Assembly: GCF_023630195.1 (NCBI RefSeq)
Contig: NZ_JALPKN010000003.1
Location: 1-38,478, forward strand
Length of the DNA: 38,478 bases
Source of the DNA: Actinotalea sp. C106
GTDB taxonomy: Bacteria; Actinomycetota; Actinomycetes; Actinomycetales; Cellulomonadaceae
Reading direction: 5' to 3'
Part shown: positions 397 to 13,540 of the stretch, piece after piece
Layout of the letters: every line of letters starts with the position of its first letter
Position numbering within the stretch: the stretch's first letter is position 1
The notes under the pieces: model-generated
Database searches by the model: none
The model's input: only the letters and a program-made list of their open reading frames with translations
Told to the model about the DNA's origin: nothing
Translations under genes and position numbers: made by a program

Positions 397-888
397 GTGC
401 ACACGGTCATCGACTTGTCCTCGTACGACGGTGGGTCGACAGCACCGCAGCACCTACCAGTGCCAGGGTCGGTGATCCCGGCCCGTCCGCAGTTCGCCGT
501 GCCGGAACAGAAGGTGGCAGAGCAGAGGGAGACTACGACGCTGCGCACCGACCGGACCGTGCACGTCCCAGGCGCGAACGACGCGACCCAGGCGCTGGAC
601 CTCACGGCGCCGATCGACTTGTGGGACAACGACGATGATGACGTGGACGAGGAGAAGTCACCGAAGGTGCCCCACCCGTCGATCGCCCCGGCGATGCTCA
701 GGTGGCAGCAGATGAAGGCCACGGAGGCTGCTGCGGCGTTCAACGCCCCTGCTTCGACTCCTCCCCCGGCTGCGGCAACGCAGACACGGTCACGACCAGC
801 GATGCCGTCGCTCCAGGGCAGCTTGTCGCAGCACGTGCCGTCCTCGAACGGGCCGGCGGCGGGCGATGAGGGCTACTGGTCCGACTGA
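397..888 (+). pseudogene. 3' remnant of a gene truncated by the IS3 element
   Basis: The open frame enters from inside the IS and has no start of its own, so this is the surviving tail of a longer gene. About 163 residues remain. They are Pro/Ala-rich and of low complexity, with an acidic run (DNDDDDVDEEK) in the middle and a terminal EGYWSD. No catalytic motif is visible and I do not recognise the family. The frame ends 8 bases before a strong hairpin, which suggests it was a normal last gene of a transcript. It faces the replication-relaxation gene tail to tail. Translation from an internal codon cannot be excluded. Confidence 0.5.
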
Positions 889-896
889 CCCCACAA

Positions 897-937
897 GCAG
901 AAGCGCCCCGCACCTGGTTGGTGCGGGGCGCTTCTGC
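897..937. terminator. bidirectional hairpin terminator
   Basis: A perfect 18-bp stem (897-914 pairs with 920-937) encloses a 5-base loop TGGTT. It lies exactly between two convergent genes. No U-tract follows, which is common for actinobacterial terminators. Confidence 0.8.
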
Positions 938-949
938 GCATGAGGGTCG

Positions 950-2056
950 TCACCACCACCCGTCCTCAGACAGGCCGGGGTCCACGGCACGGATGTCGAC
1001 CCGTCCACGTCGCCACGTCGCCGCGAGCATCTCGTCGGTCTGCTCCTCGAACGCGTCGATCGCACCCGGTGGGTTCTTCGCGATGTGGGCCGGCCACCGG
1101 TCGACAACAACGGTTCGCTTGCCCTGCTTCACGCGGTTCCCGATGTACCAGTCCTTCGTCGCGAGCCCGCTCAGCGACGCCCCTGGCAGCCACATCTGCA
1201 ACCGGACAAGACCGTCCGCCGAGCGCAGCACGTACTGGTCTGGGTCGAGCTCGATGCCGAGCCGTTCACACGCTTCACGCAGCCGCTCAGCGGTCGCGTT
1301 GGACCGGATGTGCCACACCTGCCCTAGCCCGGCGGCCCGGTAAGCGTGGATCACCCCCTGGTAGTCGCTGACCTCCTTCGTCGCGCGCTCGAGTTCGATC
1401 CCCCACCGGCGTCCTGCTGTGTCGATGACGCCAAGGTCCGGGGGGTGCACACCGATCATCCCTGGTACGTGCACCGTCCAGAACGGGCCACCAGTCGGCT
1501 GCGGGTAACGCCGCTCACCGGCCCCGCGAACTCCGTCCATCTCCAGGGAGCGGATTTCTCTCTCCGAGACCACCTTGAAGCCCATCCGGGTGTACCAGGC
1601 CGTGAGATCAACGCAGCCGAGCTGGTGGTCGGACTGTGTGCGCGACCGATCCGCCGGCGGCATGTTCAGGAGCGTGTCAGCGGGGTACCCGACGGGCACC
1701 CACGGCTGCACGTGCTTCCTGCCTTCGGTCGTGATGACGTACACGTTCGCGACGGTGTCGCGGATCGACTTCATGTCGTTCCAGTCCGCGGCGGCCTTCA
1801 CGGGCGTGATCGCCTTCGCGAGGAGTCCGCGTTCGACGTTCCGCTCGAGGTGGGCTCGGTGGGTGTGCGGTGACCCGCCGAGGAGCTGGTAGAAGTGCAC
1901 GGGACGGAGCATCGTGTACCGGAGCGTGATGTTCAGCTGGGCCTGGTCGAGCTTGTCGACGCCGATACGAACCAGTCGCTTCGCACGGGGCTTCGCGGCG
2001 GGTGTCGGGGCTGGGATGTCGGGTGCTGGGGGCATGGGTGCTGCGGTTGTGTTCAT
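950..2056 (-). CDS. replication-relaxation family protein
   Basis: The 368-residue protein fits the replication-relaxation (Replic_Relax) family found on actinobacterial plasmids and integrative elements, whose molecular role is poorly known. After a Pro/Ala-rich start there is a winged-helix-like segment (about residues 35-115: LNITLRYTMLRPVHFYQLLGG and ITTEGRKHV). A nuclease-like core follows, with PPDLGVID about 13 residues before GIELERATK, the D...ExE pattern of PD-(D/E)XK folds. The fold and activity are inferred from these motifs. I chose ATG 2056 over the in-frame GTG at 2080, but neither has a strong ribosome site. A long gene-free tract and a 14-bp inverted repeat lie upstream. It probably serves maintenance or transfer of the element. 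Confidence 0.7.
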   Translation of the reverse strand: MNTTAAPMPPAPDIPAPTPAAKPRAKRLVRIGVDKLDQAQLNITLRYTMLRPVHFYQLLGGSPHTHRAHLERNVERGLLAKAITPVKAAADWNDMKSIRDTVANVYVITTEGRKHVQPWVPVGYPADTLLNMPPADRSRTQSDHQLGCVDLTAWYTRMGFKVVSEREIRSLEMDGVRGAGERRYPQPTGGPFWTVHVPGMIGVHPPDLGVIDTAGRRWGIELERATKEVSDYQGVIHAYRAAGLGQVWHIRSNATAERLREACERLGIELDPDQYVLRSADGLVRLQMWLPGASLSGLATKDWYIGNRVKQGKRTVVVDRWPAHIAKNPPGAIDAFEEQTDEMLAATWRRGRVDIRAVDPGLSEDGWW

Positions 2057-2070
2057 ACGAACCACGATAC

Positions 2071-2260
2071 GTCTAGACACCGATCGGTCAGCCCGGACGG
2101 ATACGAACCCCGCTGCGAACCTTGATGCGACGAGGGATCACATCGAGGTTCGCATAGTTTTGTGCGTGCAATGCACCCAGCCGACCACCCCAACTCCCCC
2201 TTCTGTAGGGATGAAGTAGGGAGAGGGGCTACCTGTGCGTTCGGGTCTAGGTGTCTAGAC
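2071..2260. repeat. 11-bp inverted pair GTCTAGACACC / GGTGTCTAGAC
   Basis: GTCTAGACACC at 2071-2081 and its exact reverse complement at 2250-2260 flank the upstream region of the replication-relaxation gene. The right copy is also half of a local palindrome, GGTCTAG-GTGT-CTAGACC (2244-2261). Such a pair could be operator or replication-protein sites; the function is inferred only. Confidence 0.5.
2114..2154. promoter_or_regulatory. 14-bp inverted repeat upstream of the replication-relaxation gene
   Basis: TGCGAACCTTGATG (2114-2127) pairs with CATCGAGGTTCGCA (2141-2154) with a single T:G wobble and a 13-base loop. It sits 58 bases upstream of the minus-strand ATG and at the left edge of the gene-free tract. 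It may be an operator for the minus gene, or the first stem of a plus-strand transcript. Confidence 0.55.
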
Positions 2261-3520
2261 CGCACCGTTCGCCCCGTGGCGTGCTGTGACGCATCGTGTC
2301 GTCTCGTGGCTGGGTGGTGGGGGTCGGTCGCGGCAACGGCGACCCACTTCGGTCGCTGCGCTCCCTCTCTGGGCGCGCCGAAGCCGCTCCCTTGGTTGGG
2401 TGAGGGGTCCGGTCGCAAGCGGCTGAACCACCCGACCTCGCTGCGCGTCGGTCGTATGGCCGCAGCCGCAAGCTCCCTGCCTTCGGGGTGGTCGGGTTGG
2501 TGCGGTAGGTGGCGCTAGCTCTCCCCGTGGTGGGGGGTGGGTAACCGTAGCCGGGTGCTGGAGGCACGTCCCGGTGGGTGGGTCTGTCGCTAGTCGTGGT
2601 CGGGTGCCGTACCGCGACGGGCGTAGGTGACCCCGACACTCGGCGCGCCGGGAGACCACGTGCCGGTGGTTTGTCGGGTGCGCTGCGGTGAGCCGCAAGA
2701 CCAACCATTGGGTTACGAAGGAAAGCGGGGGCGCACTGCCCGCCCTGCCGCGAGTCGAGCGGTGAAGGTCACGTCGCAGGCCCGCCAGGGCCGTTGCGAT
2801 GGGACCCACCGCGGAGGTGACCTGCCCGGAGGACTCAACCATGAGCCGTGAAGGTTCCCATGCACGAGCAGGGCAGGTGACCGGTGGCAGGCGCCCTAGC
2901 GCCTAGCCAACGGGCACCACCCGCGACCGCACCCTCCGCGCAGTACCCGGCCACGGGCCACAACCCCACGGTGACCTGACAGAAGAGCGAGAAGAGCGCA
3001 GGACTGGGCAGCCCCCAGGGGGGTGACCGGTCCGGAGTGAGACTCGCGGACCCGACCAACGGTGAGGAACGAGTCGATGCTGACCGTTGCGGATCGTGAC
3101 ATGCGGCGACGGCACCCGTAGGGGTACAGCACACTGCTGCCGACAAACCCGCAGGGGCACCACCGTCGCGCGGCCAGGACACCCCAATGCGGCGGGCAAC
3201 TCCTGCTGGGCTACTTGAGCGTCCGCCGACCAACGACACCAAGCGGGTAGGCGCCGCACAGGGCTCAAGCCACAGGCCCGTGGCGACCAGCACACAGCCG
3301 GCAACCAGGGCGGGCTGGAGGTAGGGAGGGGTGCGTGCACCGATGGCTGTCCCGCTCGCTGCACTCGCCGCCCGCTCGCGCCTCCCGCTGCCCCGGACGC
3401 CTGCCCCCGGACGGACTGACGGTGGGGTGGGCAGGCGAGCCCACTCCCCATGCGGGACGCCCGATTCTCCGGCGAGAGGTCCGACCCACCCTCCGGAGTC
3501 CGGGTTGCGAGAATGGACAC
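2157..3520. other. 1.4-kb gene-free, hairpin-rich tract (candidate structured RNA or replication/transfer locus)
   Basis: No frame on either strand reads like a protein here: the long frames are arginine/proline-rich shadows without family motifs or ribosome sites. Local inverted repeats follow each other closely. Examples are 2244-2250/2255-2261, 2326-2331/2339-2344, 2347-2352/2378-2383, 2382-2388/2418-2424 (AGCCGCT/AGCGGCT), 2430-2437/2490-2497 (ACCCGACC/GGTCGGGT), 2820-2827/2871-2878 (ACCTGCCC/GGGCAGGT) and 3057-3063/3083-3089 (CAACGGT/ACCGTTG). This nested pattern fits a large structured RNA (for example of the GOLLD or ROOL kind found on mobile DNA) or an origin-type region beside a replication-relaxation gene. 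I could not match it to a known RNA family by eye, and high GC alone raises the hairpin background. Confidence 0.4.
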
Positions 3521-3739
3521 ATGACCACCAAGGAGAACACCGAAGCAGGCGCCCTCTTGGACGCTTTCGCGCGCGTCCTGTCCCACCCTGAGCTGCCCGC
3601 GGCGGTCGTGACCGACCTCGCCGACGTGCTCGGTGACACCGGCGGGGCGAGGTACGGGATCGTCGATGGGGTACCGCTCGGGGCGCACCACGTCGCGGAC
3701 CTTGCGCGTGAGCAGGCTCAGCGGCTCCGCGAGACGTGA
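3521..3739 (+). CDS. small hypothetical protein (72 aa)
   Basis: I do not recognise this family. The ATG at 3521 opens a 72-residue acidic, helical protein (MTTKENTEAGALLDAFARVL...) with a plausible codon pattern and the core LADVLGDTGGARYGIVDGVPL. No ribosome site precedes the ATG. GAGAAT about 10 bases upstream could be a -10 box, so the message may be nearly leaderless, which is common in actinomycetes. The gene is the first after the gene-free tract. It has no signal peptide, membrane segment or known motif. The position suggests an accessory gene of the mobile element. Confidence 0.55.
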   Translation: MTTKENTEAGALLDAFARVLSHPELPAAVVTDLADVLGDTGGARYGIVDGVPLGAHHVADLAREQAQRLRET

Positions 3740-3874: not shown

Positions 3875-4044
3875 TCGTGCCAGTCCTGAAGTCACGTGCC
3901 CTCCGCGATGGGTGGTGGTGTGGTGGGCACCGTAGCGGGACCAGGCCGACTACGGGAGTGATCACCGTGCTGAGGTGGTGCGCTGATGGTGCTCGGCGAG
4001 GTGCCGGCCAAGGGCTACACCTCGCCCCGCGCTACCTTCATCTC

Positions 4045-4830
4045 ATGACTGACCCGTGGGCCGCAGGCAGTGCTGATGAGGTCGCCACGGCGGCCGCTGA
4101 CCTGGGCGCGACCGCCACCCAGGAGCTGGACGCCTTCCCGTGGGTGATCACGGGCACCGCTGACGGGGCTGGGTGGTCGCTGAGGGAGCGTTCCGGCCTC
4201 TACGAGATCCACCTCGAGCGTGACGACGGGGCGGAGAGGGTTCTGCTGCGCACCGGCGGTGACGTGGACCTGCCTTCCCCCACCGCCGCTGTGCGCCTGG
4301 CTGTCGCGACCGTCCGCACCCACCTGCGCCAAGCGGCCTGCACCCACACTGGTGCGCCTGTGGAGGCGGCGTGGTGCCCATGGTGCGGGACGCCCATTTC
4401 TGACCCCGCACTGCCCCGTGACCCTGACCCCGCTCCCCTGCCAGACGGCGCCACCGTGCACCAGTCCGCCCAGTGGCTCTTGGGCCGGCACCCACACATG
4501 GCGCGACTAATCGAGTCCCTGTCAGGCACGGTCGAGATCGTGGACGGTGAGCCCGAGCTCGACCTGGAGGCTCTCGCGGCGGCGCTCGTCGCTTTCGAAG
4601 CGTGGCAACTGGACACCCTCCTGGACCAGGCCACCACCAAGCCCGAGGCCGCGGACCACCTCGCGATGCTGAGCAAGTCGGCCCTGACCCAACTGCGCAT
4701 GCTCGCCACCCTGAGCTACGCGGGCACGCGCACCGGCCCGCTCGTGAGCGAGGTTGCGGAAGACCTCGACAACCTCGGGCGAGCAGTCGCCGCCGATTGG
4801 GTGCGCATCATCCAAGCCGCGATCGGCTGA
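4045..4830 (+). CDS. hypothetical protein with a possible zinc knuckle
   Basis: The family is not recognised. The ATG at 4045 gives 261 residues (MTDPWAAGSADEVATAAADL...). The frame stays open further upstream, but that stretch crosses the IS-end remnant and is arginine-rich, so it is not used. Near residues 98-116 the segment ACTHTG...WCPWCGTPI places three cysteines in C...CPWC spacing, which could bind zinc. The C-terminal half is helical and Ala/Leu-rich, ending in VRIIQAAIG. There is no signal peptide or membrane segment. TACCTT lies about 10 bases before the ATG and no ribosome site is seen, so the message may be leaderless. The TGAGC repeat array follows directly. Confidence 0.65.
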   Translation: MTDPWAAGSADEVATAAADLGATATQELDAFPWVITGTADGAGWSLRERSGLYEIHLERDDGAERVLLRTGGDVDLPSPTAAVRLAVATVRTHLRQAACTHTGAPVEAAWCPWCGTPISDPALPRDPDPAPLPDGATVHQSAQWLLGRHPHMARLIESLSGTVEIVDGEPELDLEALAAALVAFEAWQLDTLLDQATTKPEAADHLAMLSKSALTQLRMLATLSYAGTRTGPLVSEVAEDLDNLGRAVAADWVRIIQAAIG

Positions 4831-4854
4831 CCAGGCTGCACAGCCCACGCCCCG

Positions 4855-5300
4855 CTCACGCGCACCTCTCCTGCTCGCCCCTGTCGCGTGCGCACCCCCG
4901 ACAGGTGAGGGCATGAGCGCGCCTCACCACGACCGGTGAGCGGCCCGGTGGGCACCGCGCACCAACCGCCGGGTGCTCAGCGCCCACCCCACTGAGGCGA
5001 GCAGGCCCTGTGGTCAGCCGCCCCATGAGCGGCTCACGCGCAGAGCGCTCGTGTGCGGCTGCTCGCTGAACGGGGCGCGCGCGCACGGTGGGGTGCGCAG
5101 TCGGGTCGGGTGCGCACGGTCCTGAGCGGCCCCGTGAGCGGGCGCTGAGCGGACTGTGCACGTTCGATGAGCGTCTCGGTGAGCGGGCGGTGAGCAGCCG
5201 CGATTAGCTCGCCGTGCGCACCCGGTGAGTAGCCCGTGAGCGAGCGTGAGCCGAGCTGGTGAGCGCCTGTGCGCACCTGGCTGTGCAGGCGGTGAGCAGT
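4855..5300 (+). repeat. oriented TGAGC / GTGCGCAC repeat array, candidate transfer or replication locus
   Basis: This 563-bp gap (4831-5393) between genes holds about a dozen or more copies of TGAGC, most within (G/C)(G/C)TGAGCG. They occur near 4914, 4937, 5026, 5122, 5134, 5144, 5168, 5179, 5190, 5236, 5245, 5258 and 5291. Nearly all are on the plus strand, with only three obvious reverse copies, near 4855, 4976 and 5032. Interspersed are four GTGCGCAC palindromes near 4888, 5109, 5213 and 5268. Strand bias of a short word is unlike simple GC-richness. Streptomyces clt loci, recognised by TraB translocases through direct 8-mers, and iteron origins have this form. A DUF2637 (Spd-like) gene follows, as near clt loci. 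No TraB gene is in the window. Confidence 0.55.
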
Positions 5301-5378
5301 GGGGGGCGGGACCGGCGATGCGTCTGGGCCTGCCGGTAGCGTCGACGAAAGTCATACAGACCTATCGGATGTTCCTAG

Positions 5379-5393
5379 AGGGAGGGGTCCGCG
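5379..5393 (+). promoter_or_regulatory. strong Shine-Dalgarno without a canonical start codon
   Basis: AGGGAGGGG at 5379-5387 is the best ribosome site in the area. Six bases downstream, in frame with the DUF2637 gene, stands ATC (5394), and the frame is open back to a TAG at 5376. The first canonical codon in frame is GTG at 5481. Confidence 0.5.
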
Positions 5394-6347
5394 ATCACCT
5401 CGCCGGCCACACACCGTATCGACACCGGCAGCGCCGGGTTCGCCCGCGCTCTCACTGGCTTCGCCCTGACGATCCTTTCCGTGGCGTTCGCGATCAGCGC
5501 CGCTGCGCTCGTCGAGGTCGCCGCCTGGGCCAACGTCCACACGTGGTTGCGTTGGGGCTTCGCCGTCCTCGTCGACGCCGCGGCCCTCCTCCTCATCGGC
5601 CTCGCGCTCAAGAGCCGCAGCGAGGGCTACCTGGGCCGGGCCCGGTTCTGCTGGACCGGCGTCGCGTTCCTCACCCTCACGTCGTCCGTGCTCAACGCCG
5701 CGCACGCCGCCGACGGGGACGCCCACGGATGGCGGCTGTGGGCCGGAGTCGGCATGGCCGCCCTGCCCCCGATCCTCGTGTGGCTCTCCGTACACGTCCT
5801 GTCCTGGGTGCACGCCGCGACCCCTGACGAGCAAGCCGCCCGCCAAGCCGCCGCGGAGAAGGCCGCCGAAGAGGGACGGGCCCGCCAAGAGCGGGCCGCT
5901 GAGCGCGAGGCACGCCACGCGGCGAAGCTCGCCCGGATCACCGCCGAAGCGGAAGCCCATGCCCAGATCGAAGCCGCTGAGCGTCAGGCCCACCTCGAGG
6001 GTCGGGTCGCGGCCGCGCAGGCGAAGGCCCACAAGGCCGTCCACGACACCGAGGTGACCGCTCCCACCGAAAGCCCCGCCCCCCAGCCCTCCGCGGCTGC
6101 GCCCGCACCGGCGGCCTCGTCCACGCCCGCAGGGGCGCCCACGGCCCCCGCGATCGATTCCGCAGACCGCGACGCCGAGGTGCTGCGTCTCGTCGCGCGG
6201 GGCCTGTCCGACTCGGCGATCGCGAAGCGCCCGGGGATGCCGTCCAGGGCGACGGTCGGGCGCATCCGCCAGCGCGCCGAAGCGAGCCAAGGTGAAACTG
6301 CCCCCGTCGGGGACGCCCAGATTGACCTGGCACTGGTGTCGGCATGA
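5394..6347 (+). CDS. DUF2637 (SpdB-like) membrane protein with C-terminal HTH-like tail
   Basis: This matches the DUF2637 group of actinobacterial plasmid and integrative-element membrane proteins, some linked to spread of transferred DNA (Spd). The membrane part holds four hydrophobic helices, the middle ones reading GFAVLVDAAALLLIGLALK, TGVAFLTLTSSVLNAAHA and VGMAALPPILVWLSVHVL. An Ala/Glu/Arg-rich coiled coil, a Pro/Ala linker and a resolvase-like HTH tail (LVARGLSDSAIAKRPGMPSRATVGRI) follow. The first canonical start, GTG 5481, would cut the first helix short. The open frame from ATC 5394 restores it (FARALTGFALTILSVAFAISAAAL, quoted here only in part) and has the ribosome site. I therefore mark 5394 as the likely start and 5481 as the conservative one. 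The stop overlaps the next ATG (ATGA). Confidence 0.7.
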   Translation: MTSPATHRIDTGSAGFARALTGFALTILSVAFAISAAALVEVAAWANVHTWLRWGFAVLVDAAALLLIGLALKSRSEGYLGRARFCWTGVAFLTLTSSVLNAAHAADGDAHGWRLWAGVGMAALPPILVWLSVHVLSWVHAATPDEQAARQAAAEKAAEEGRARQERAAEREARHAAKLARITAEAEAHAQIEAAERQAHLEGRVAAAQAKAHKAVHDTEVTAPTESPAPQPSAAAPAPAASSTPAGAPTAPAIDSADRDAEVLRLVARGLSDSAIAKRPGMPSRATVGRIRQRAEASQGETAPVGDAQIDLALVSA

Positions 6348-6750
6348 ACCCCGCACGAAAAGGCACCCCGAACCCGAACCTCCCACCCGGAGCCGGCGGG
6401 CTGTACACGATCAGGATGCTCGCTGAACGCCTCGGTGTGACCGTCGGGACGATGCGCGGGTACGTGCACGCCAAGCCCCATCCAGCCTGGCTTCCAGAGC
6501 CCCAACGCCTCGGGAACGAACTCGCGTGGACCGCGGAAGCCCTTAACGAGGCGCAGATTGACAGCGCCCGCCCATCAGAGGTGAGGGCGCTCGTTCTAAG
6601 CGGACACGTCCCGCCTGGTGGTCGGGCTCGAAAAGGCGTTGGCCCTAGCAGCCTGCTTCGACGACACCTCACGGTCGATGCGGTCCTGCATGGGGCGCAC
6701 CCGTGCGATCTCCGTTCGTTGCGCGCATACACGCGTTTGTCCTGCACCGG
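6344..6750 (+). pseudogene. helix-turn-helix (excisionase/MerR-like) protein, 3' end lost to an IS remnant
   Basis: The ATG overlaps the stop of the DUF2637 gene, so the two are translationally coupled. Residues 19-70 form a winged-helix DNA-binding unit (LYTIRMLAERLGVTVGTMRGYV ... LGNELAWTAEALNEA; quoted in parts), like AlpA/Xis-type regulators of plasmids and integrative elements. After about residue 85 the sequence turns arginine/serine-rich and runs through a degraded IS3 end, staying open by chance to 6943. The native C-terminus is therefore missing, although the DNA-binding part may still be made. A role in control of the transfer region is inferred from the coupling. Confidence 0.55.
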
Positions 6751-6950
6751 CTCTAGTGGAGGCTCGGAAACGACGCGCCGACGGTGGTCGGTGCGGGGTT
6801 GCGTCAGTAGTAGGTTTCTTGGTGTTCGGCCGGTGAGACCAGGCCGACCCCTCAGTGCAGGCGTCGGTGGTTGGACCAGTCGATGTACTCAGCGAAGGCG
6901 ATCTCGAGATCGTCGATGCTCTTCCCGGGCCGCTGGCAGCTAGGGAGCGG
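6748..6950 (-). mobile_element. IS3-family remnant (OrfB tail plus degraded end)
   Basis: On the minus strand a frame encodes SIDDLEIAFAEYIDWSNHRRLH, quoted here as a known IS3 OrfB C-terminal signature (DLE...EYIDWxNxRRLH). A TGA at 6852-6854 interrupts it, after which the same frame resumes GVGLVSPAEHQETYY and stops at 6804. The outer end GAGCCTCCACT (about 6764-6774, minus strand) resembles the IS end at 3861-3874 but the terminal bases have drifted. Upstream of about 6950 the sequence no longer resembles OrfB and the catalytic DDE residues are absent. This is a dead fragment. Confidence 0.7.
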
Positions 6951-7585
6951 CGCCTTCGTGACGCCGTAGCGGGCCCCTAGCGCGGACCTGAACCTCTGGT
7001 GCGACTCAGCCTTCGATCCAGTTGCCCATTGTGTCAACTGGGCCGTTGGCCTTGAACCTGCCGTAGACGAGAGGTGAACCTTTGTCGCCCAGCGCCCTTG
7101 TTGGACGCCGCCGGCCCTGAGGCGTACGCCGTCGCCCAAGTGCGTGCCGTCCCGACCCCGCCGAGGTCGATCGCATCGGCCCCAACCACTCCCGTAGCGG
7201 CCCTCGAGGATCGGGGACGGGAAGAGCGGCGGTAGCAGTACGGCGAGCTCAGCCTGCCAGCCACGGGGTGCTCAAGAGGCCAAGCCCGGCGAACACCGAT
7301 CCCGGCGCGCAGTTCCTCGGGCATGTAGCCCACCGATCACAGCACAACGGGATCCCAACGGGATTGGGGCATCGGACCACCCTGGGGTCTAGTGGCACGG
7401 ACGCAGAGAGTCACAACACGCACGACCGCCAAGACTACCTATCTGACTCTCGCCGCACAAGACCGAAGTCACCCGTAGCGATTCAGGTCTCAGAGTTCAC
7501 TCGAACGGCCCACGCAGGCCCACCTCAGGCCGCTAGTGTGAGGGCGCTGATCATGGTGGTCAGCCTGCTCGGAAGGGGAACCTAG
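6951..7585. other. 635 bp without a supported gene
   Basis: Frames on both strands are short or lack family motifs and ribosome sites. The minus strand may hold scrambled IS sequence near 6951-7130. The last 100 bases must carry the promoter of the secreted-inhibitor gene, but I see no convincing -35/-10 pair. Confidence 0.4.
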
Positions 7586-8020
7586 ATGAAGACTAGATTG
7601 GGAAAGCGTGCGGCTGCAGCAGCAGCCTTGGCGCTCGGACTGGCTGTTGGAATCGGATCGCCGGCGAGTGCAGCGGTAGCACCGTGTCCGTCGGGCTACG
7701 CATGCGGTTGGGACTCGACGTCGTACTCAGGCACCTACTTCGCGTCGGCGCTCAACAAGACCAACTGGGGCAGGCAAGGATTCGGCAACCGTGCCGAGAG
7801 TGCTGCAGCGAACGGAGCCTCGTGCCAGTTCACCCGGTTCTACAAGAGCTGGAATATCGTCACCAATGACGTCTACGGTGACTACTTCACGCTCTACTCA
7901 CGCCAACTGCTCGGAAGCAACTACCAGGATCCGAATCTGTCGAACGGAGCTGGATACGACAGCGCCGGCGAAGGGTCCTACGCCAACACGCTAGAGGCAC
8001 ACTGGTTCACAGGCTGCTGA
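7586..8020 (+). CDS. secreted peptidase-inhibitor family I36 protein
   Basis: The 144-residue product starts with a classic Sec signal peptide: basic MKTRLGKR, then an Ala/Leu-rich core and the cleavage motif SPASAA near residue 29. The mature part begins CPSGYACGWDSTSYSGTYF, the hallmark of the I36 (SMI-like, beta/gamma-crystallin fold) inhibitors of Streptomyces. It continues with NRAESAAANG and several Cys that can pair (C33, C40, a mid-protein Cys and the C-terminal Cys). The likely role is an extracellular inhibitor of proteases, or a structural relative with another target. Ribosome site GGAAGGGG sits 6 bases before the ATG. A strong terminator follows. It faces the export-type operon and shares its lower GC. 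Confidence 0.75.
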   Translation: MKTRLGKRAAAAAALALGLAVGIGSPASAAVAPCPSGYACGWDSTSYSGTYFASALNKTNWGRQGFGNRAESAAANGASCQFTRFYKSWNIVTNDVYGDYFTLYSRQLLGSNYQDPNLSNGAGYDSAGEGSYANTLEAHWFTGC

Positions 8021-8023
8021 CAC

Positions 8024-8057
8024 AAGGGGGCCCCGAGCGAAATCTCGGGGCCCCCTC
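8024..8057. terminator. strong bidirectional terminator
   Basis: GGGGGCCCCGAG (8026-8037) pairs perfectly with CTCGGGGCCCCC (8044-8055) around the loop CGAAAT. AA precedes the stem and TCTTTCT follows, so it can act for both convergent genes. Confidence 0.85.
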
Positions 8058-8061
8058 TTTC

Positions 8062-9225
8062 TCAGTCCGAGCGAACCGCGAGGGCTGGCTGAATGCCCAT
8101 CGCACGGAAGGCGGGGTAGATCGTAGAGAGCAGCCCGACGACGGCACCGAGAGCGGGCCCAGCTATCATCCACTCGACGGCCAGAACGGGGGTCCACTGA
8201 TTGACGAGGGAGACGCCGACTATGGCGAACGTAGCGACCGCCGTGCCAGTAGCACCACCGAGCATTCCAATAACGGCTCCTTCCGCCAAGAATAGACCGG
8301 CAACAAACCCCCTTCCGGCACCGATCGCTCGTCTGACGCCAATCTCTGTGGTGCGGGCGAGCACGGACACAGTCATTGCATTGGCTATCAAGAGGACCGT
8401 GAGTGCCAATAGTAGCCCGCCAATCCATCCCGCCAAGCGCCCCAGTTGCGTTGAAACACCCATCCTGACAGAGGCAGGGTCGATAACCTGTGAGGAGTGG
8501 AGTCTTCCAGGCGCGTCAGGGCGAATCGCCACTCGTACGACTTGTGCTACATGGGCACCTGCGCCAACAGAAGTGCGAACGAGCATCTGTGCGTCCGCAT
8601 CACCCCCAGCGACGTCGACGGCCAAGGCATAGGGGAGTGCAACGAGGTTCGCCAACGCGTCCGAACCTGTGCAGGCAAAGCCGGCTACCGAGTACCGCGC
8701 ACCGTTGATCACCACGCTGTACCCGGCCGGGTTTGCCGAAAGCGGCACCCCGAGGGCTCTCGCCGCATCTCGGCCGAGATACACGACCGACTCATCGGTG
8801 TCGAGAACCCAACTTGCGGTCTCCTCTTCATCGGGACAGGACGCCCCTAGATAGCCTGAAGTCATTCCGACCAGCGCCAGATCAGCCTCGACTCGAGCGC
8901 CTCGCACTCGCGCACTGATGTCGAACTGGCCCGTCACATCGATCCGGCGGCCGGCAGCGACGACCGACTCCAGTGCGGCTACTCGAGCATCAGCGTCCTC
9001 GGGGAACGCGAGTCCCGTAACGTCGCCACCAGCCACAGGCTCAATCGTTACCAGGTCAATCGCCGTGGCTGCGAGGTCAGCGTCGACCTGCCGGGCAGCG
9101 GTGGTCGAGAATCCGATCGCTGATACGAGACTCCCGACCGAAAGAGCCACCGCTACAATCATCAGCGACGTCCGGATTCGGCGCGCGTGCAACTCAATCG
9201 CGACGTCGCTAAGGAGATCACGCAT
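8062..9225 (-). CDS. ABC transporter permease, MacB/FtsX type
   Basis: This is the membrane subunit of a MacB-like mechanotransmission ABC transporter. It has one N-terminal membrane helix (about residues 21-40, LMIVAVALSVGSLVSAIGF), an external domain of roughly 210 residues, then three helices around 270-375, including GWIGGLLLALTVLLIANAM and the FtsX signature ARTTEIGVRRAIGAGR. It ends in AFRAMGIQPALAVRSD, typical for the family. The length is 387 residues. The start at 9225 (MRDLLSDV) overlaps the ATPase stop (ATGCGTGA), and the longer frame to 9291 lies inside the ATPase gene. It acts with the ATPase and the PG-binding adaptor upstream. Such transporters move peptides, antibiotics or lipoproteins out of the membrane; the substrate is not known. 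Confidence 0.85.
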   Translation of the reverse strand: MRDLLSDVAIELHARRIRTSLMIVAVALSVGSLVSAIGFSTTAARQVDADLAATAIDLVTIEPVAGGDVTGLAFPEDADARVAALESVVAAGRRIDVTGQFDISARVRGARVEADLALVGMTSGYLGASCPDEEETASWVLDTDESVVYLGRDAARALGVPLSANPAGYSVVINGARYSVAGFACTGSDALANLVALPYALAVDVAGGDADAQMLVRTSVGAGAHVAQVVRVAIRPDAPGRLHSSQVIDPASVRMGVSTQLGRLAGWIGGLLLALTVLLIANAMTVSVLARTTEIGVRRAIGAGRGFVAGLFLAEGAVIGMLGGATGTAVATFAIVGVSLVNQWTPVLAVEWMIAGPALGAVVGLLSTIYPAFRAMGIQPALAVRSD

Positions 9226-9895
9226 TCTCGGGTTCCAGCCTTCCGTCGGAGAGGCGCAGAACTCGATCAGCCCACGTCGCGATTCGACCATCGTGCGTGA
9301 TCACGACGACGCCGACTCCCCTGGAAGCCTGGGCGTCGAAGAGTTCAAGTATGGCATCCGCACTCTCGGGATCAAGGTTGCCGGTAGGCTCATCCGCGAG
9401 AATAAGAGCGGGTTGAGTAATGGTCGCTCTAGCGATCGCGACCCTCTGCTTCTCGCCGCCCGATAGGAGCCGGCCAAGCGAGCTCGCCCGGTGCGATAGT
9501 TGGACCCGTTCAAGTGCTTCGTTGCAGAGTCGCGCTCGGTCAACGCGAGGGACACGGTTGACCGACAGTCGGATTTCGAGGTTCTCCACAACAGTTCTGT
9601 GACCAAGCACGTGCGACTCTTGGAAAACGAATCCCATCGCGTCTGCGCGCAATCGATCTCGCTGTCGCTCGCTTAGCGCGCTCGGATCTCTTCCCATTAC
9701 CTTGACGTGCCCGCTGGTCGGTGCGTCCAGGATGCCTAGCAGGTTGAGCAGAGTGGACTTACCCGAACCGGACCTACCAATCACTGCAACGCGCTCCCCG
9801 GCACGCACTTCCAAACTGACGGCCGAGAGTGCTTCGACTGGGGGCAGTGACGGGTATGTGCGACTCAGCCCTACAGCCTCGAGGAGCATGCTCAT
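9218..9895 (-). CDS. ABC transporter ATP-binding protein, MacB/LolD type
   Basis: This 225-residue cytoplasmic ATPase drives the permease encoded just downstream. All motifs are intact: Walker A GRSGSGKST (about 39-47), Q-loop FQESHVLG, signature LSGGEKQR, Walker B ALILADEPTGNLD and H-loop VITHD. The length and the LLNLLGILDAPTSGHV segment place it in the MacB/LolD subfamily. Its ATG (9895) overlaps the adaptor stop by four bases (ATGA) and its end overlaps the permease start, so the three are one translational unit. Confidence 0.9.
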   Translation of the reverse strand: MSMLLEAVGLSRTYPSLPPVEALSAVSLEVRAGERVAVIGRSGSGKSTLLNLLGILDAPTSGHVKVMGRDPSALSERQRDRLRADAMGFVFQESHVLGHRTVVENLEIRLSVNRVPRVDRARLCNEALERVQLSHRASSLGRLLSGGEKQRVAIARATITQPALILADEPTGNLDPESADAILELFDAQASRGVGVVVITHDGRIATWADRVLRLSDGRLEPENA

Positions 9896-11193
9896 GACCC
9901 AGCGACCAGGACTTCGTCGCCCGCGGACAGCCTCTCGGAATCCACGATTGCGCTCCCGTCTACCGTGACCGATATCTCCACAGGGACGCGTGTTCGATCT
10001 TCACCGGAGGTGACGAAGACATAGTATCCCGAAGTATCCTCTCGGATGGCAACGAGCGGAACTACAGTGCCATAGACACTCGTCTCAGCATCTGATGGCC
10101 GGATCCGCACTTGCGCGCCGTCACTAAATGAAGCGGTGTCAGTGAAAGCTAGAGTCATGTCATAGCCCGCAGGCCGATCTGCGGTGCCCGGACTGAACTC
10201 GCCGACGTCTTTGACCACCAACTCCGAACTCTCGGACGAGCCGGTGCCTTCCACGGCCAGCACCTGGGATCCAACTGGGAACGAGTCAAACTGCTCCACG
10301 GTGATCCGGCTGGTTACGGTAGGGGTACCCGTACGGATGGTCGCGAGCGGTTCCTCCCCTCCCAGTATTGCACCCACGGCCGCAACATCTTGGACCTCGA
10401 CTCCTTCGCTTGGGACCACCAGAACCTCTGCAGCTGGCAATGGGACGGCCGCCGCCAGTAGCGCTTCTCCGAGACCCTTCTGGGCTTTCACGATGGATTC
10501 CCTCAATGGGGATAATGCGGTTCCGGCCTCGCCCTCACCTGCAGGGGCTTCTGACGTCTCAGCGTCCGCGAAGGCTTGCCGGGCCGCCGCAAGCGACTCC
10601 GAAGCTGCGTCCACAAGCTCGGCGGACTCTGCCGCTGCGGGGGGCGGGACGAGCCCCAGGCTCTTGTAATAGTCGGCTACGCCTTGAGCCGTCTGTGCTC
10701 CATAGATCCCGTCGAGCGCCCCGTCGTAGACGCCAGCATGGGACAGCACGTCCTGTACAGCTCTAACGTCCTCTCCGATGGCGCCCGGCGTCAGATCTCT
10801 ATACATGGGATACGGAAGAGGCCACGCCACGAGCGGCCGGCCGGACACGTGTGCGAGCACTTCCCCCGGGCCTAACGTCTCGCCTACAGCACGTCCCACC
10901 TCGGTGACAACCATTCGATCGGTGCTCCCGGTTGGGATCACCGGGACGCTCGTACCAAGATGGACGACCCCAGCCACCTCGACCATGGGCAAGGAGAGGC
11001 TTTGCTCGACCACTGTTGCGCTCACGTCAGGGGTTCGAGCGTTCTCAACGGCTTCCTCCCACGGTGATTGGATAGTCGAGCCCAGCGCGAAGGCGGCACC
11101 TGTCGCGACCGCGGTCCCCAAAGCCCAGATCGAGAGCCATCTCGATCGCCTTGCGGGACTCTGCACAGAAGTTTCAGCGAGATCGTTCGTCAC
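9892..11193 (-). CDS. membrane-anchored adaptor with peptidoglycan-binding domain (HlyD/MacA-like)
   Basis: The protein of 433 residues has one N-terminal membrane helix (LSIWALGTAVATGAAFALG), a PG_binding_1 domain near residues 130-165 (LTPGAIGEDVRAVQDVL, VYDGALDGIYGAQT) and a helical arm rich in Ala/Glu. Beta-rich lipoyl/barrel-like segments typical of HlyD/MacA adaptors follow (RITVEQFDSFPVGSQV, VPVEISVTVDGSAIV). It probably links the ABC pump to the cell wall. GTG 11193 is chosen because AAGGGG lies 9-14 bases upstream and the lipoprotein stop is 7 bases away; a TTG at 11220 is less likely. Genes of this type often stand next to MacB-like pumps for bacteriocins or lipopeptides in actinomycetes. 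Confidence 0.8.
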   Translation of the reverse strand: MTNDLAETSVQSPARRSRWLSIWALGTAVATGAAFALGSTIQSPWEEAVENARTPDVSATVVEQSLSLPMVEVAGVVHLGTSVPVIPTGSTDRMVVTEVGRAVGETLGPGEVLAHVSGRPLVAWPLPYPMYRDLTPGAIGEDVRAVQDVLSHAGVYDGALDGIYGAQTAQGVADYYKSLGLVPPPAAAESAELVDAASESLAAARQAFADAETSEAPAGEGEAGTALSPLRESIVKAQKGLGEALLAAAVPLPAAEVLVVPSEGVEVQDVAAVGAILGGEEPLATIRTGTPTVTSRITVEQFDSFPVGSQVLAVEGTGSSESSELVVKDVGEFSPGTADRPAGYDMTLAFTDTASFSDGAQVRIRPSDAETSVYGTVVPLVAIREDTSGYYVFVTSGEDRTRVPVEISVTVDGSAIVDSERLSAGDEVLVAGS

Positions 11194-11200
11194 CGGCTCT

Positions 11201-12097
11201 CTACCCCTTCGCGCCCGCAACTAGATCGTTCGACATCTCCAGCGCCTCGTCGATTCGATCTCTTTGAGCAACGAGTTCGTTCGCATACTCAGCAATGATC
11301 GGTGCTTGCAGTTGTGCATGCCGGTCGGCGACCCTTTGCGTGAAGTCCATCTGGGTCTTGCAGTCAACCACCTCTAGCGCAAGCCTGATCTGCCCCTCGC
11401 TGATCTGCGAGGCGTCCGCTCCGACGGGCAGCCACGGCTGCGCACTATTTGATGGGCTCAGGCCGCTCTCCTCGTAGCAATCGTATAGTTCTGACAGGAT
11501 CTCCTGGATCTGAGCATCTTCCAGAACTGCAGCTTCGACAGCGGCAAGCTCGGCCATCCAGGGGCCCTGGAGGTGTAGCGCTGCGACCAGATCCTGCACC
11601 GTGGCATCAGTGGCGTTGCACTCGTCGATCACCTTCCAGTCCTGCTCACTCAAATCACCGTTGGGCGTCGCCGCGGACGTATTGTCACTTGTCCCGTTGA
11701 TAATCCCGTTGGCGGCGAGATCGGCCTCGGTCATCGGCATCACAAATCCAAAGCTGTTGGCCTGCGTGGTCGTCCACGGACCGAAGTACGTCTCGGATCG
11801 GTAGACCGGGTCGCTCGCAGATTCCGGTGGCGCAAAGGTGACGCCTCTTTCTTCAGCGCAGGCTGCGACGGCGTAGGCGGTCGCGTGAGCCAGGTCCATC
11901 TCTTCAAGCTGGTCGTACTTGAGCCGGTCCGCCGGAAGGATCACGGCGCCGGTCTGCGGATCAAGCTCGGCCCGGACACTGATACCCGCAACAACGTCCT
12001 CGCTCAGCGCTGGCTCATCGACTTGCGGACTAGCACATCCCGCCACGAGCAATGCGCCAAGGATCGCTAGGTATCCCGGGGTAGTCTTGTGGCTCAT
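11201..12097 (-). CDS. lipoprotein of the export module
   Basis: A type II signal peptide ends in the lipobox LLVAGC, with C21 as the lipidated residue, so the 298-residue product is anchored outside the membrane. The mature part is helical, acidic and Trp/Cys-containing (AVAACAEERGVTF, DWKVIDECNAT, ELYDCYEESG, EVVDCKTQMDF). Paired cysteines spaced along helices suggest disulfides. I do not recognise a named family, but small lipoproteins of this kind accompany PG-binding adaptor/ABC trios in actinomycetes. AGGAAG stands 5 bases before the ATG. It is the first of four tightly packed genes and is separated by 124 bp from the GntR gene. A chaperone or substrate-capture role for the pump is inference. 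Confidence 0.75.
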   Translation of the reverse strand: MSHKTTPGYLAILGALLVAGCASPQVDEPALSEDVVAGISVRAELDPQTGAVILPADRLKYDQLEEMDLAHATAYAVAACAEERGVTFAPPESASDPVYRSETYFGPWTTTQANSFGFVMPMTEADLAANGIINGTSDNTSAATPNGDLSEQDWKVIDECNATDATVQDLVAALHLQGPWMAELAAVEAAVLEDAQIQEILSELYDCYEESGLSPSNSAQPWLPVGADASQISEGQIRLALEVVDCKTQMDFTQRVADRHAQLQAPIIAEYANELVAQRDRIDEALEMSNDLVAGAKG

Positions 12098-12131
12098 ATC
12101 TTCCTACCTTCCACAAATGTCGGTTGAAGTC

Positions 12132-12147
12132 GGCGTGGCTTCACGCC
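12132..12147. promoter_or_regulatory. short hairpin between the GntR and lipoprotein genes
   Basis: GGCGTG (12132-12137) pairs with CACGCC (12142-12147) around GCTT in the only gap of the operon (12098-12221). It may lower read-through from the regulator genes into the export genes. Weak evidence. Confidence 0.3.
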
Positions 12148-12221
12148 CGTGGGGAATGTTGGTCGAGGCAACTTTTGTCGCAGTCGCAAAGGACCCGGCC
12201 AGGCCGCATAGTTGCGGCGCG

Positions 12222-12599
12222 CTAGTGGGAGGCCAGCGGAGCTGTAGACGATAGGAGCGCTGAGCGGACAAGGTCCATTACGTCCGCGTCATTTATACCC
12301 TCGCTACGGGCGGTGGAGACAAGCTCTTTCGCGATCTCCTGGGCTCTTCCGGGTGCACGGTCCGGTACGGAGACCACTGTCCCAACACGACGACGGCTCA
12401 CTACCTGACCTGCCGACTCCAGTTCACGGTACGCACGAGCGACGGTCCCCGGTGCTATCCCCAGGTCCGATGCGAGAATGCGTACGGTGGGCAATCTGTC
12501 ACCCTGGTGCAGGGATCCTGCCGTCACATGTGCAGCGATTTGGGAGCGGATCTGCTCATACTGCGGAACCGAGGAAGCGATATCCACCGTGATCTTCAT
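12222..12599 (-). CDS. GntR-family regulator, YtrA subfamily
   Basis: The 125-residue protein has the N-terminal winged helix of GntR regulators (PQYEQIRSQIAAHVTAGSL, GDRLPTVRILASDLGIAPGTVARAYRELE, quoted as two known segments in part) and only a short helical C-terminus. This is the size of the YtrA subgroup that controls ABC transporter operons in Gram-positives. YtrA-type proteins act as repressors, often released by cell-envelope antibiotics. The start overlaps the stop of the membrane-protein gene upstream (ATGA), and the ABC module lies downstream, so autoregulation of the whole operon is the natural reading. Candidate operator sequence is the 22-bp tandem repeat at 13690-13735. Confidence 0.85.
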   Translation of the reverse strand: MKITVDIASSVPQYEQIRSQIAAHVTAGSLHQGDRLPTVRILASDLGIAPGTVARAYRELESAGQVVSRRRVGTVVSVPDRAPGRAQEIAKELVSTARSEGINDADVMDLVRSALLSSTAPLASH

Positions 12600-13540
12600 C
12601 TTGCCACGACTTGCTTCTCCAAGGACGACCTAGTCCGCATACGGTGCACAAGTTGCAGCAGCGAGAGCGCGGACGCGCAGAGTGCAACGCCGACCGCTGC
12701 GACCAGCAGGCCCGCGCCGATATGTTGGTTCGACAGCGGGCTCGCCGGTCCCTCTTGCGCCGCGCGTCCTACAGCCAAGTGCACCCAGCCGGCCGCGACA
12801 AGGATGCCAGCGGTTCCAAGGGCCAGAACGAACTGCGTTCCCTGCACGATGTGGGCCGCCGAGCGACGGCGTAGATGCATGTCCCACTCGCGGCTCACGC
12901 CGGGGACTGCTGGGCGGAGGGCCACGAGTCTAAGCACCGCTTCGGTGGCGATGACAACCCCGACCGTAGCGATACCCATGGGTATCCCGTAGTACCAGCC
13001 TGGGTAGGGCCCGGCGAGCCCGAGCTCGTTGCCATCGCGCACGAGGGTTCGGGGCCCATCGGCCACGAGCCCGAAGGCAAGTAGGGCTGCCAGGCTGAAA
13101 CCGCCCCATATGTGCACCAGACGCCGGAGAGGCATTGGGGCCACGTCAGCGACTGACCGGCGAACCAACTCAGCGTCGCGCCGAGCACCTGTCTGCCTCG
13201 GCCAGGTCAGCTGACCTACAGCCTGGACGAGAAGGAGTGACATTGCTGCAAGGGCCGGGAGAAGCGACAGTATGCGCCCGTCACTAGGCATCACGCCGAG
13301 GAAGAATCCCCCAAAAATCCAACTGAGGATCAAGAGCAGGAGTGCGACACCGAGCACTGAGGCTAGCGTTGCATGCCGGTTGGCTCGCATGGCCGCTTGC
13401 GACGCCACCGGTGTTCGACTTGCGTCCCAGAGGAGCAGCACTAGGACACCGACGAGGACAACGACGACGGACGTCAGGTAGGCGGCCAGCTGGGGTGCGG
13501 GCAGACAACCGGCTAGGCAGATGGCTTGTCCTCGGGTCAC
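12596..13540 (-). CDS. seven-helix membrane protein of the export/immunity operon
   Basis: No family is recognised. The 314-residue product has seven probable membrane helices, for example LTSVVVVLVGVLVLLLW (1), VALLLLILSWIFGGFFLG (2), ALAAMSLLLVQAVGQL (3), and GAGLLVAAVGVALCASALSL (7). A basic loop (TWPRQTGARRDAELVRR) separates helices 3 and 4. GTG 13540 is preferred because AGAGAGG lies 8 bases upstream; the frame is open to 13576. The gene is first in the operon and coupled to the GntR regulator. YtrA-type loci often carry such a membrane protein beside the pump, so a sensor, permease partner or immunity role is possible but unproven. Confidence 0.7.
   Translation of the reverse strand: MTRGQAICLAGCLPAPQLAAYLTSVVVVLVGVLVLLLWDASRTPVASQAAMRANRHATLASVLGVALLLLILSWIFGGFFLGVMPSDGRILSLLPALAAMSLLLVQAVGQLTWPRQTGARRDAELVRRSVADVAPMPLRRLVHIWGGFSLAALLAFGLVADGPRTLVRDGNELGLAGPYPGWYYGIPMGIATVGVVIATEAVLRLVALRPAVPGVSREWDMHLRRRSAAHIVQGTQFVLALGTAGILVAAGWVHLAVGRAAQEGPASPLSNQHIGAGLLVAAVGVALCASALSLLQLVHRMRTRSSLEKQVVAR

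Follow-up and report, generated by a model that had tools for sequence, protein, structure and literature searches.

A strand-biased word array upstream of a DUF2637-type gene keeps an 11.4-bp spacing in two relatives, which suggests a docking site that may tie DNA to the membrane

RocS and the Par protein of plasmid pSK1 are single partition proteins that each combine a DNA-binding domain with a membrane anchor and a long helical middle part, and they are proposed, in the consulted part of one paper (PMC11500499), to tether DNA to the membrane. The clt loci of the Streptomyces plasmids pSVH1, pJV1, and pWTY27 are plasmid-specific short repeats near the tra region that are read by TraB or TraA (consulted portions of PMC3583192 and PMC4170104). 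One of these plasmids, pSVH1, also encodes SpdB2, an actinobacterial plasmid membrane protein that binds DNA nonspecifically and forms oligomers, according to the same portions of PMC4170104. BldC and RdfS assemble on DNA as head-to-tail oligomers (excerpts of PMC5859096 and PMC11963761). A search of the open-access literature, with subscription papers outside its scope, returned no description of an array such as the one presented here; DUF2637 was named once, by one paper that, judging from its title and opening abstract, concerns a potato pathogen genome.

The stretch of DNA analyzed here (the window; 38,478 bp of Actinotalea sp. C106) is an entire contig of a 661-contig assembly. Between the end of an upstream gene at position 4830 and a DUF2637-type open reading frame (ORF) lies an array of short words. 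We know of no agreed function for DUF2637-type membrane proteins. The features on which the argument depends are given below, where G014 denotes the related genome of Cellulomonas sp. APG4, HTH denotes helix-turn-helix, and wHTH denotes winged HTH.

2170 to 3520, no strand assigned: conserved, apparently noncoding block, found together with the array in the same three genomes
3521 to 3739, plus strand: small ORF conserved in G014 by sequence comparison
4027 to 4830, plus strand: upstream gene, the first half of which is conserved in G014 directly before the array of that genome
4831 to 5320, plus strand: whole array of the word TG[A/C]GC[G/A], from the upstream gene toward the DUF2637-type gene (GC content, 0.74)
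4888 to 4895, no strand: GTGCGCAC, palindromic member of the word series (pattern search)
5110 to 5117, no strand: GTGCGCAC, as above
5214 to 5221, no strand: GTGCGCAC, as above
5269 to 5276, no strand: GTGCGCAC, as above
5100 to 5300, plus strand: periodic core of the array (13 words, phase analysis)
5301 to 5393, plus strand: conserved leader from array to gene, in which 64 of 87 aligned nonword columns are identical to G014
5394 to 6347, plus strand: DUF2637-type membrane protein with a C-terminal HTH (homologues, Pfam matches of relatives, and AlphaFold2)
5430 to 5813, plus strand: four predicted membrane-length helices, residues 13 to 140 (block pLDDT of 48 to 78; hydropathy supports three)
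5823 to 6056, plus strand: predicted 78-residue helix, residues 144 to 221, a possible stalk (block pLDDT of 88 to 95 for residues 151 to 210, lower at the ends)
6159 to 6293, plus strand: C-terminal three-helix HTH, residues 256 to 300, candidate word reader (pLDDT of about 90 for residues 261 to 290; Pfam HTH match below the cutoff)
6344 to 6574, plus strand: MerR/Xis/AlpA-type wHTH gene, the product of which is the rival candidate reader (structure model; Pfam match below the cutoff)

The earlier note on this DNA had described a strand-biased array of TGAGC with four GTGCGCAC palindromes, and this description is confirmed. By direct count, positions 4855 to 5300 hold 13 TGAGC words on the plus strand and 2 on the minus strand (binomial p = 0.007 for the bias), a further minus-strand copy at 4854 to 4858 straddles the edge of this stretch, and 4 of the 8 GTGCGCAC copies of the whole contig fall within it. 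TGAGC is enriched over a shuffled background: among 2,000 dinucleotide-preserving shuffles of positions 4855 to 5300, the plus-strand count averaged 1.42 with a maximum of 6, and none reached 13. The same shuffles never held more than 2 copies of GTGCGCAC, with 0 of 2,000 reaching 4. The other 446-bp windows of the contig (n = 1,839) contain at most 5 TGAGC words on one strand, and none matches the array. Shuffles and contig windows together rule out chance or base composition as the source, and no sigma-70 promoter or terminator array was found in the array region. When all TG-N-GC words are listed, TGAGC and GTGCGCAC form one word series, TG[A/C]GC[G/A], in which the palindromes share the register of the TGAGC words.

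Within the periodic core, which was picked by eye, the best period is 11.35 bp at a phase coherence of 0.95; for the whole window array (18 words), the period is 11.15 bp at a coherence of 0.71. In each case, 0 of 500 random placements were as good. At 10.5 bp, the ordinary helical repeat of DNA, coherence is only 0.31 for the core and 0.26 for the whole array. Word-to-word steps in the right half are mostly 10 to 13 or 22 to 24 bp. All 18 words in the densest 450 bp of the window have different 11-mers, so the array is not a plain tandem repeat, and a young one is unlikely; other TGAGC repeats in the family are often perfect copies, and a plain minisatellite was rejected on these grounds.

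In a DNA search of the gap against 99 related genomes, G014 gave a match of 71% identity (107 bits, E = 1.5e-23), while all others scored 49 bits or less, and the match lies directly upstream of the G014 DUF2637-type homologue. There, 29 TG[A/C]GC words occur in 530 bp; their period is 11.40 bp at a coherence of 0.56, a value that none of 500 random placements reached, and 23 of 26 11-mers are different. With gapped columns set aside, and with an aligner that favors matched words and thereby tilts the figures toward conservation, the right half of the alignment between window and G014 has 92% identical word columns (36/39) against 62% of spacer columns (45/72), and the left half has 67% (28/42) against 43% (73/170). 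In the second relative, G017, the word is GAACC, present 21 times (16 forward and 5 reverse); the last copy precedes the gene for the DUF2637-type homologue by about 440 bp, and the period is again 11.40 bp, at a coherence of 0.68 that 2 of 500 random placements reached. Because two AlpA-like genes converge on this array from either side, their 3' ends facing it, the array is no simple promoter operator in the G017 element. The homologous gap of G014 therefore keeps both word and period; the idea that the same word array precedes related DUF2637 genes holds for G014 and fails for G017 as regards the word, yet not as regards the 11.4-bp period. The word array is conserved in two relatives, by period in both and by word in G014 only, and spacing kept despite a differing word suggests a docking site, which may tie DNA to the membrane.

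Searches for relatives covered 99, 221, and 396 genomes. An alignment of the three proteins, run against 221 genomes of the family, scored 447 to 520 bits in the three array-bearing genomes and 98 bits in the next, and 49 of the 221 match it at E ≤ 1e-6. A phased-word scan upstream of 52 DUF2637-type loci (50 distinct places, near and remote homologues; a further locus fell below usable length) flagged six: the three known arrays, one locus with a GCCGC word, read as codon bias, and two TGACCGG-rich coding stretches before DUF2637 genes in G507 and G489. These last were rejected as a further word, being inside an ORF and not periodic. In another family, coding stretches rich in TGACCGG/CCGGTCA lie before DUF2637 genes at positions 1 to 530 of locus L113 and 600 to 970 (reverse strand) of locus L109, with no period. 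A cruder word count that ignores spacing, applied to 37 loci, singled out L087, which has no upstream DNA, along with the window and G014; G017, in whose shuffles its word is frequent, did not rise above its highest dinucleotide shuffle. When 20 longer stretches were scanned for spacing, the three arrays were the top places of their loci; other places were flagged as well and read as coding repeats or codon bias, among them CGGAC with 13 steps, both within and beyond the G020 DUF2637 gene, CGACG in G014, and several GCCGC or CGCCG words.

TGAGC triples at 10- to 13-bp steps are found at least once in 130 of the 221 family genomes, often as perfect tandem repeats, and the arrays contain three of the four triples in the genome of the window and six of the seven in G014. 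Thirty loci fetched from this search held no comparable array; their top counts were 13, in a 5- to 6-bp tandem repeat, and 10, with irregular spacing. In the per-genome table for the 221 genomes, a reversed control pattern looks rarer than the triples. Nine other genomes with a homologue of the upstream gene had no flagged array there, in a weak test in which the array of the window only equaled the top shuffle.

The protein encoded downstream is of DUF2637 type, as the earlier note had called it, although the call is correct only by way of homologues. The window protein gave no Pfam DUF2637 (PF10935) match at E ≤ 1, and all 10 chosen homologues match that family at E ≤ 0.004, 9 of them above the cutoff. 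For six of the 10, there is in addition an HTH match (E ≤ 0.01). Two genomes of the same genus encode homologues with 42 to 43% identity to the window protein; no homologues were found in the plasmids, phages, or viral contigs searched, and Pfam gave no DUF536 match (at E ≤ 0.01 or at E ≤ 1). In an AlphaFold2 model from a two-sequence alignment (mean pLDDT of 68, pTM of 0.30), the predicted architecture consists of membrane helices, a long helix, and an HTH, which is preceded by a predicted disordered linker. The codon at 5394 to 5396 reads ATC where the G014 homologue has ATG, and the next usual in-frame start, GTG at 5481, falls inside the first predicted membrane helix. This ATC may reflect decay, a rare start, or an assembly error, and the window copy may be poorly expressed or dead. 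The leader before it is probably a promoter with a ribosome-binding site, and no sigma-70 consensus was found there.

The two halves of this protein compare differently with the relatives. The HTHs of the window and G014, the two loci with the same word, are 65% identical to each other (41/63) and 41% (20/49) and 30% (14/46) identical to that of G017, and the membrane half of the window protein is 38% identical to G014 (46/121) and 47% to G017 (66/140). The HTH is thus alike where the word is alike and the membrane half is not, which is the pattern expected if HTH and word were exchanged together; the sequence comparison suggests that the two travel together and that the membrane half does not. 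The small wHTH protein encoded next also changes with the word (74% identity between window and G014 [57/77]; 35 to 41% to G017 AlpA-like proteins in the three pairs compared), as the HTH does, and covariation across three loci would fit either protein as the binder.

Similarity of the wHTH protein to its G014 counterpart stops near residue 77, and the gene at 6344 has perhaps been cut by an insertion. Its model (pLDDT of 71) has the order beta-alpha-alpha-beta-beta-alpha, and the structural neighbors, among the matches listed, include RdfS (Z of 5.5, rmsd of 2.8, 54 residues aligned), Pukovnik Xis (5.0, 2.5, and 54), BldC in complex with DNA (4.8, 3.0, and 53), and the DNA-binding domain of pSK1 Par (4.0, 2.8, and 53). 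Foldseek alone returned no match to the model at E ≤ 0.001. When the wHTH pair was searched by sequence against solved structures, the hits were all weak (virus coat proteins and one ribosomal protein) and were taken as chance, and no homologues of this protein were found in plasmids or viral contigs.

A second conserved segment lies to the left of the array. Positions 2170 to 3729 are 71% identical to G014 (locus L049, about 10690 to 12258), and an 830-bp part is 64% identical to G017 (locus L050, about 12790 to 13523); the gene finder placed no gene in the block before 3521. In the block core, 15 of the 19 indels between window and G014 are of 1 to 2 bases. At E ≤ 1e-6, only the three array-bearing genomes among the 221 contain the block, and this sharing strengthens the view of the array as part of a conserved element core. 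Consensus folding passed a z of −3.5 in 4 of 44 windows, two overlapping ones per strand (z of −4.5 to −5.6, 30 shuffles each); the folds contain 9 and 13 pairs with both partners changed across the three sequences, and also 16 and 11 broken cells. The block may be an origin, an oriT, or a structured RNA. No homologues of it were found in plasmids or phages, and Rfam at a relaxed threshold gave one miRNA match far below the gathering score, taken as chance.

The piece of DNA that bears the array, about 7 kb long, has IS3-type transposase remnants at both ends (48 to 365 and about 6744 to 7139): the right-end ORF matches annotated IS3 transposases, and we take the left-end ORF to be part of another. 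Given these remnants, a DnaB-like helicase encoded on the G014 element, and ORFs in G014 and G017 that we presume to be integrase or recombinase like, the piece is probably a mobile element. The labels integrase, IS3 part, EccC, and replication-relaxation protein reflect mostly our judgment from the look of the sequences, and the gene lists of the related stretches come from a simple gene finder that missed real genes, such as the left AlpA-like gene of G017. No plasmid homologues were found for the protein encoded at window positions 950 to 2080.

Several observations on the surroundings were made in passing. Across positions 7001 to 13000, the GC content of the window is 0.61 to 0.63, down from about 0.70; an I36-type inhibitor gene lies there together with an FtsX/ABC/peptidoglycan-binding cluster, and this stretch is perhaps a separate recent acquisition adjoining the element. 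In both related elements, a very long ORF lies one to three genes past the DUF2637-type gene (L049, 4272 to 6959, 895 amino acids in G014; L050, 16172 to 18781, 869 amino acids in G017), with a VanY-type peptidase gene beyond it, and the G014 ORF has a below-cutoff N-terminal methylation match. Nine GTTGC words at exact 9-bp steps form nearly perfect 9-bp repeats at 7268 to 7344 of L049; a GCAAC hit in G014 was rejected as an array, being a 9-bp tandem repeat elsewhere.

The reading that we prefer, plausible though held at somewhat less than even confidence, is that an HTH protein encoded by the element docks on the array; this would likeliest be the membrane-anchored DUF2637-type protein, acting as a tether or centromere. 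A strict 11.4-bp period, together with a word that changes with the neighboring HTH proteins, argues for a dedicated HTH protein. Some 18 imperfect copies of the 5- to 6-bp word, one every 11.4 bp over about 400 bp, would form the cis-acting site, and we infer that the DUF2637-type protein of the adjoining downstream gene would read the word through its C-terminal HTH, with its N-terminal helices and long helical stalk keeping it at the membrane. Many copies bound side by side along the DNA would then anchor the element at the membrane. This would most likely serve segregation or positioning of the excised element, as has been proposed for RocS and pSK1 Par, or presentation of its DNA to an envelope transfer apparatus; in the window and G014, the array directly precedes the gene, and operon autoregulation would be a by-product there. 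By analogy with known tethers, a tether or centromere role may apply. In its most specific form, a membrane-anchored centromere of actinobacterial mobile elements would have its pitch set by protein assembly along the array, the cytoplasmic HTH of the DUF2637-type protein reading words that are free to change and so serve as the address of each element; we offer this version tentatively and consider it rather doubtful in its details. The mixed orientation of GAACC in G017 is easier to reconcile with monomers tethered one by one than with a filament running one way, and both this orientation and the strict GC-rich word favor the DUF2637-type HTH protein. Rigid spacing, on the other hand, suits subunits in direct contact better than flexible tethers and counts against the tether, as do an HTH behind a disordered linker, a below-cutoff Pfam match, a two-sequence model, hydropathy support for three of the four membrane helices, the ATC start, and a sample of only three loci.

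The main rival would have the small wHTH protein form a nucleoprotein filament on the array and switch expression or excision, as do BldC, RdfS, and phage Xis. It is a real but unlikely possibility, for which the fold near RdfS, Pukovnik Xis, and BldC speaks, as do head-to-tail oligomerization of BldC and RdfS, in the case of BldC on direct repeats (according to the excerpts consulted), covariation of the wHTH protein with the word as good as that of the HTH, and the position of the G017 array between two AlpA-like genes. Its fold assignment is nonetheless modest, given middling Z scores, a pLDDT of 71, no Foldseek match at the threshold used, and a Pfam match below the cutoff; BldC sites recur at 9 bp with an AT-rich part and RdfS has no consensus in the same excerpts, against GC-rich words every 11.4 bp here. 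Word orientation, uniform for TGAGC in the window core, is mixed in G017, and the nearest ORFs presumed to be integrase or recombinase like lie 8 to 12 kb from the G014 and G017 arrays. At 18 fetched loci of 21 weaker wHTH matches, moreover, no comparable array was found; three were flagged (CGCCG, CCGCG, and GCCGC) and read as codon bias. Replication iterons, with the array as part of an origin bound by an initiator, are improbable. In their favor are the repeats themselves, the DnaB-like helicase encoded on the G014 element, the conserved noncoding block 1 kb away, and the relatively AT-rich stretch from array to gene, where GC over 60 bp drops to 0.50 to 0.55 near all three arrays (such stretches may be promoters or an unwinding region). 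Inside the arrays, by contrast, no stretch is AT rich (lowest 60-bp GC of 0.65 to 0.68), no initiator gene was recognized next to the array in the gene lists, and word and period follow the HTH gene neighborhood.

The likeness to clt loci read by a TraB/FtsK-type translocase, raised in the earlier note, rests on oriented short repeats adjoining an Spd-like membrane gene and on clt words that differ between plasmids, as the consulted portions of the clt papers report; the word of the window is indeed unlike the clt words in those portions. No TraB-like gene was found in the genome of the window: at E ≤ 0.001, FtsK_SpoIIIE was matched just three times, by two ORFs that lie on other contigs and that we take, from their domain layout, to be chromosomal FtsK and an EccC-type protein. 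In G014 and G017, 0 of 72 FtsK_SpoIIIE matches up to an E of 10 lie on the array-bearing stretches, and the absence of TraB is firm for these two genomes only, as the window element is cut by the contig end and may have lost a traB. A Walker-A scan of the stretches analyzed, filtered by length and GC content, gave no VirB4- or VirD4-like ORF. Since, in addition, word orientation is mixed in G017, the portions consulted give about three to nine repeats of each kind for clt loci and mention no such period, and period and HTH covariation point elsewhere, we regard a clt locus as very improbable. What stands of the proposed undescribed transfer or replication locus is a real, strand-biased, and conserved cis-acting array, probably on a mobile element; transfer by way of clt and TraB is not supported. 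Least credible, and extremely unlikely in our judgment, is a drifting minisatellite without function. TGAGC tandem repeats of 11 to 13 bp are common in the family, as the triples show, and many are perfect; in the window and G014, nearly all 11-mers differ (18 of 18 and 23 of 26), words are kept better than spacers, and a different word recurs at the same period near the homologous gene of G017.

If the membrane-anchored HTH protein is the reader, the array gives a candidate specific DNA target, and with it a direct binding test, to DUF2637-type proteins, which are common in the family. A word that changes together with the HTH beside a DUF2637-type gene would turn a vague role into a testable one and, if the tether is true, would point to a membrane-based solution for keeping or delivering low-copy-number elements without a recognized partition NTPase.

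Set beside the described systems, the locus differs from the clt loci in that no TraB was found, the 11.4-bp period is strict, copies are more numerous, and orientation is mixed in G017. SpdB2 is comparable by description, and the protein of the window differs from it by a predicted C-terminal HTH and a specific-looking array. With BldC, RdfS, and Xis, the locus shares the modeled fold of a small, stand-alone wHTH protein encoded near the array (Z of 4.8 to 5.5); it differs from BldC and RdfS in its sites, as set out above. Like R1 parC and ParR, described in a source consulted in part, it would have short repeats bound by a dedicated protein, the binder here being a candidate. The array is longer and GC rich compared with R1 parC/ParR and tubC/TubR, the candidate binder is membrane anchored, and no partner NTPase gene was recognized beside the array in a Walker-A scan and in gene lists inspected by eye. 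That scan, with length and GC filters, found DnaB-like and IstB-like ORFs and two distant window ORFs. Proteins of the ParM and TubZ types are not known to carry a Walker-A motif and were assessed by eye in the gene lists. Iteron centromeres, like that of TubR/tubC, adjoin the gene of their binder. From RocS and pSK1 Par, the DUF2637-type protein differs by an opposite domain order, by transmembrane helices in place of an amphipathic helix, and by a 400-bp periodic word array, and no sequence relationship to them was shown. As predicted from the model, it nevertheless resembles them in uniting DNA-binding domain, long helix, and membrane anchor within a single polypeptide, and the literature consulted, in part, offered no nearer precedents than RocS and pSK1 Par for a single partition protein bound to the membrane.
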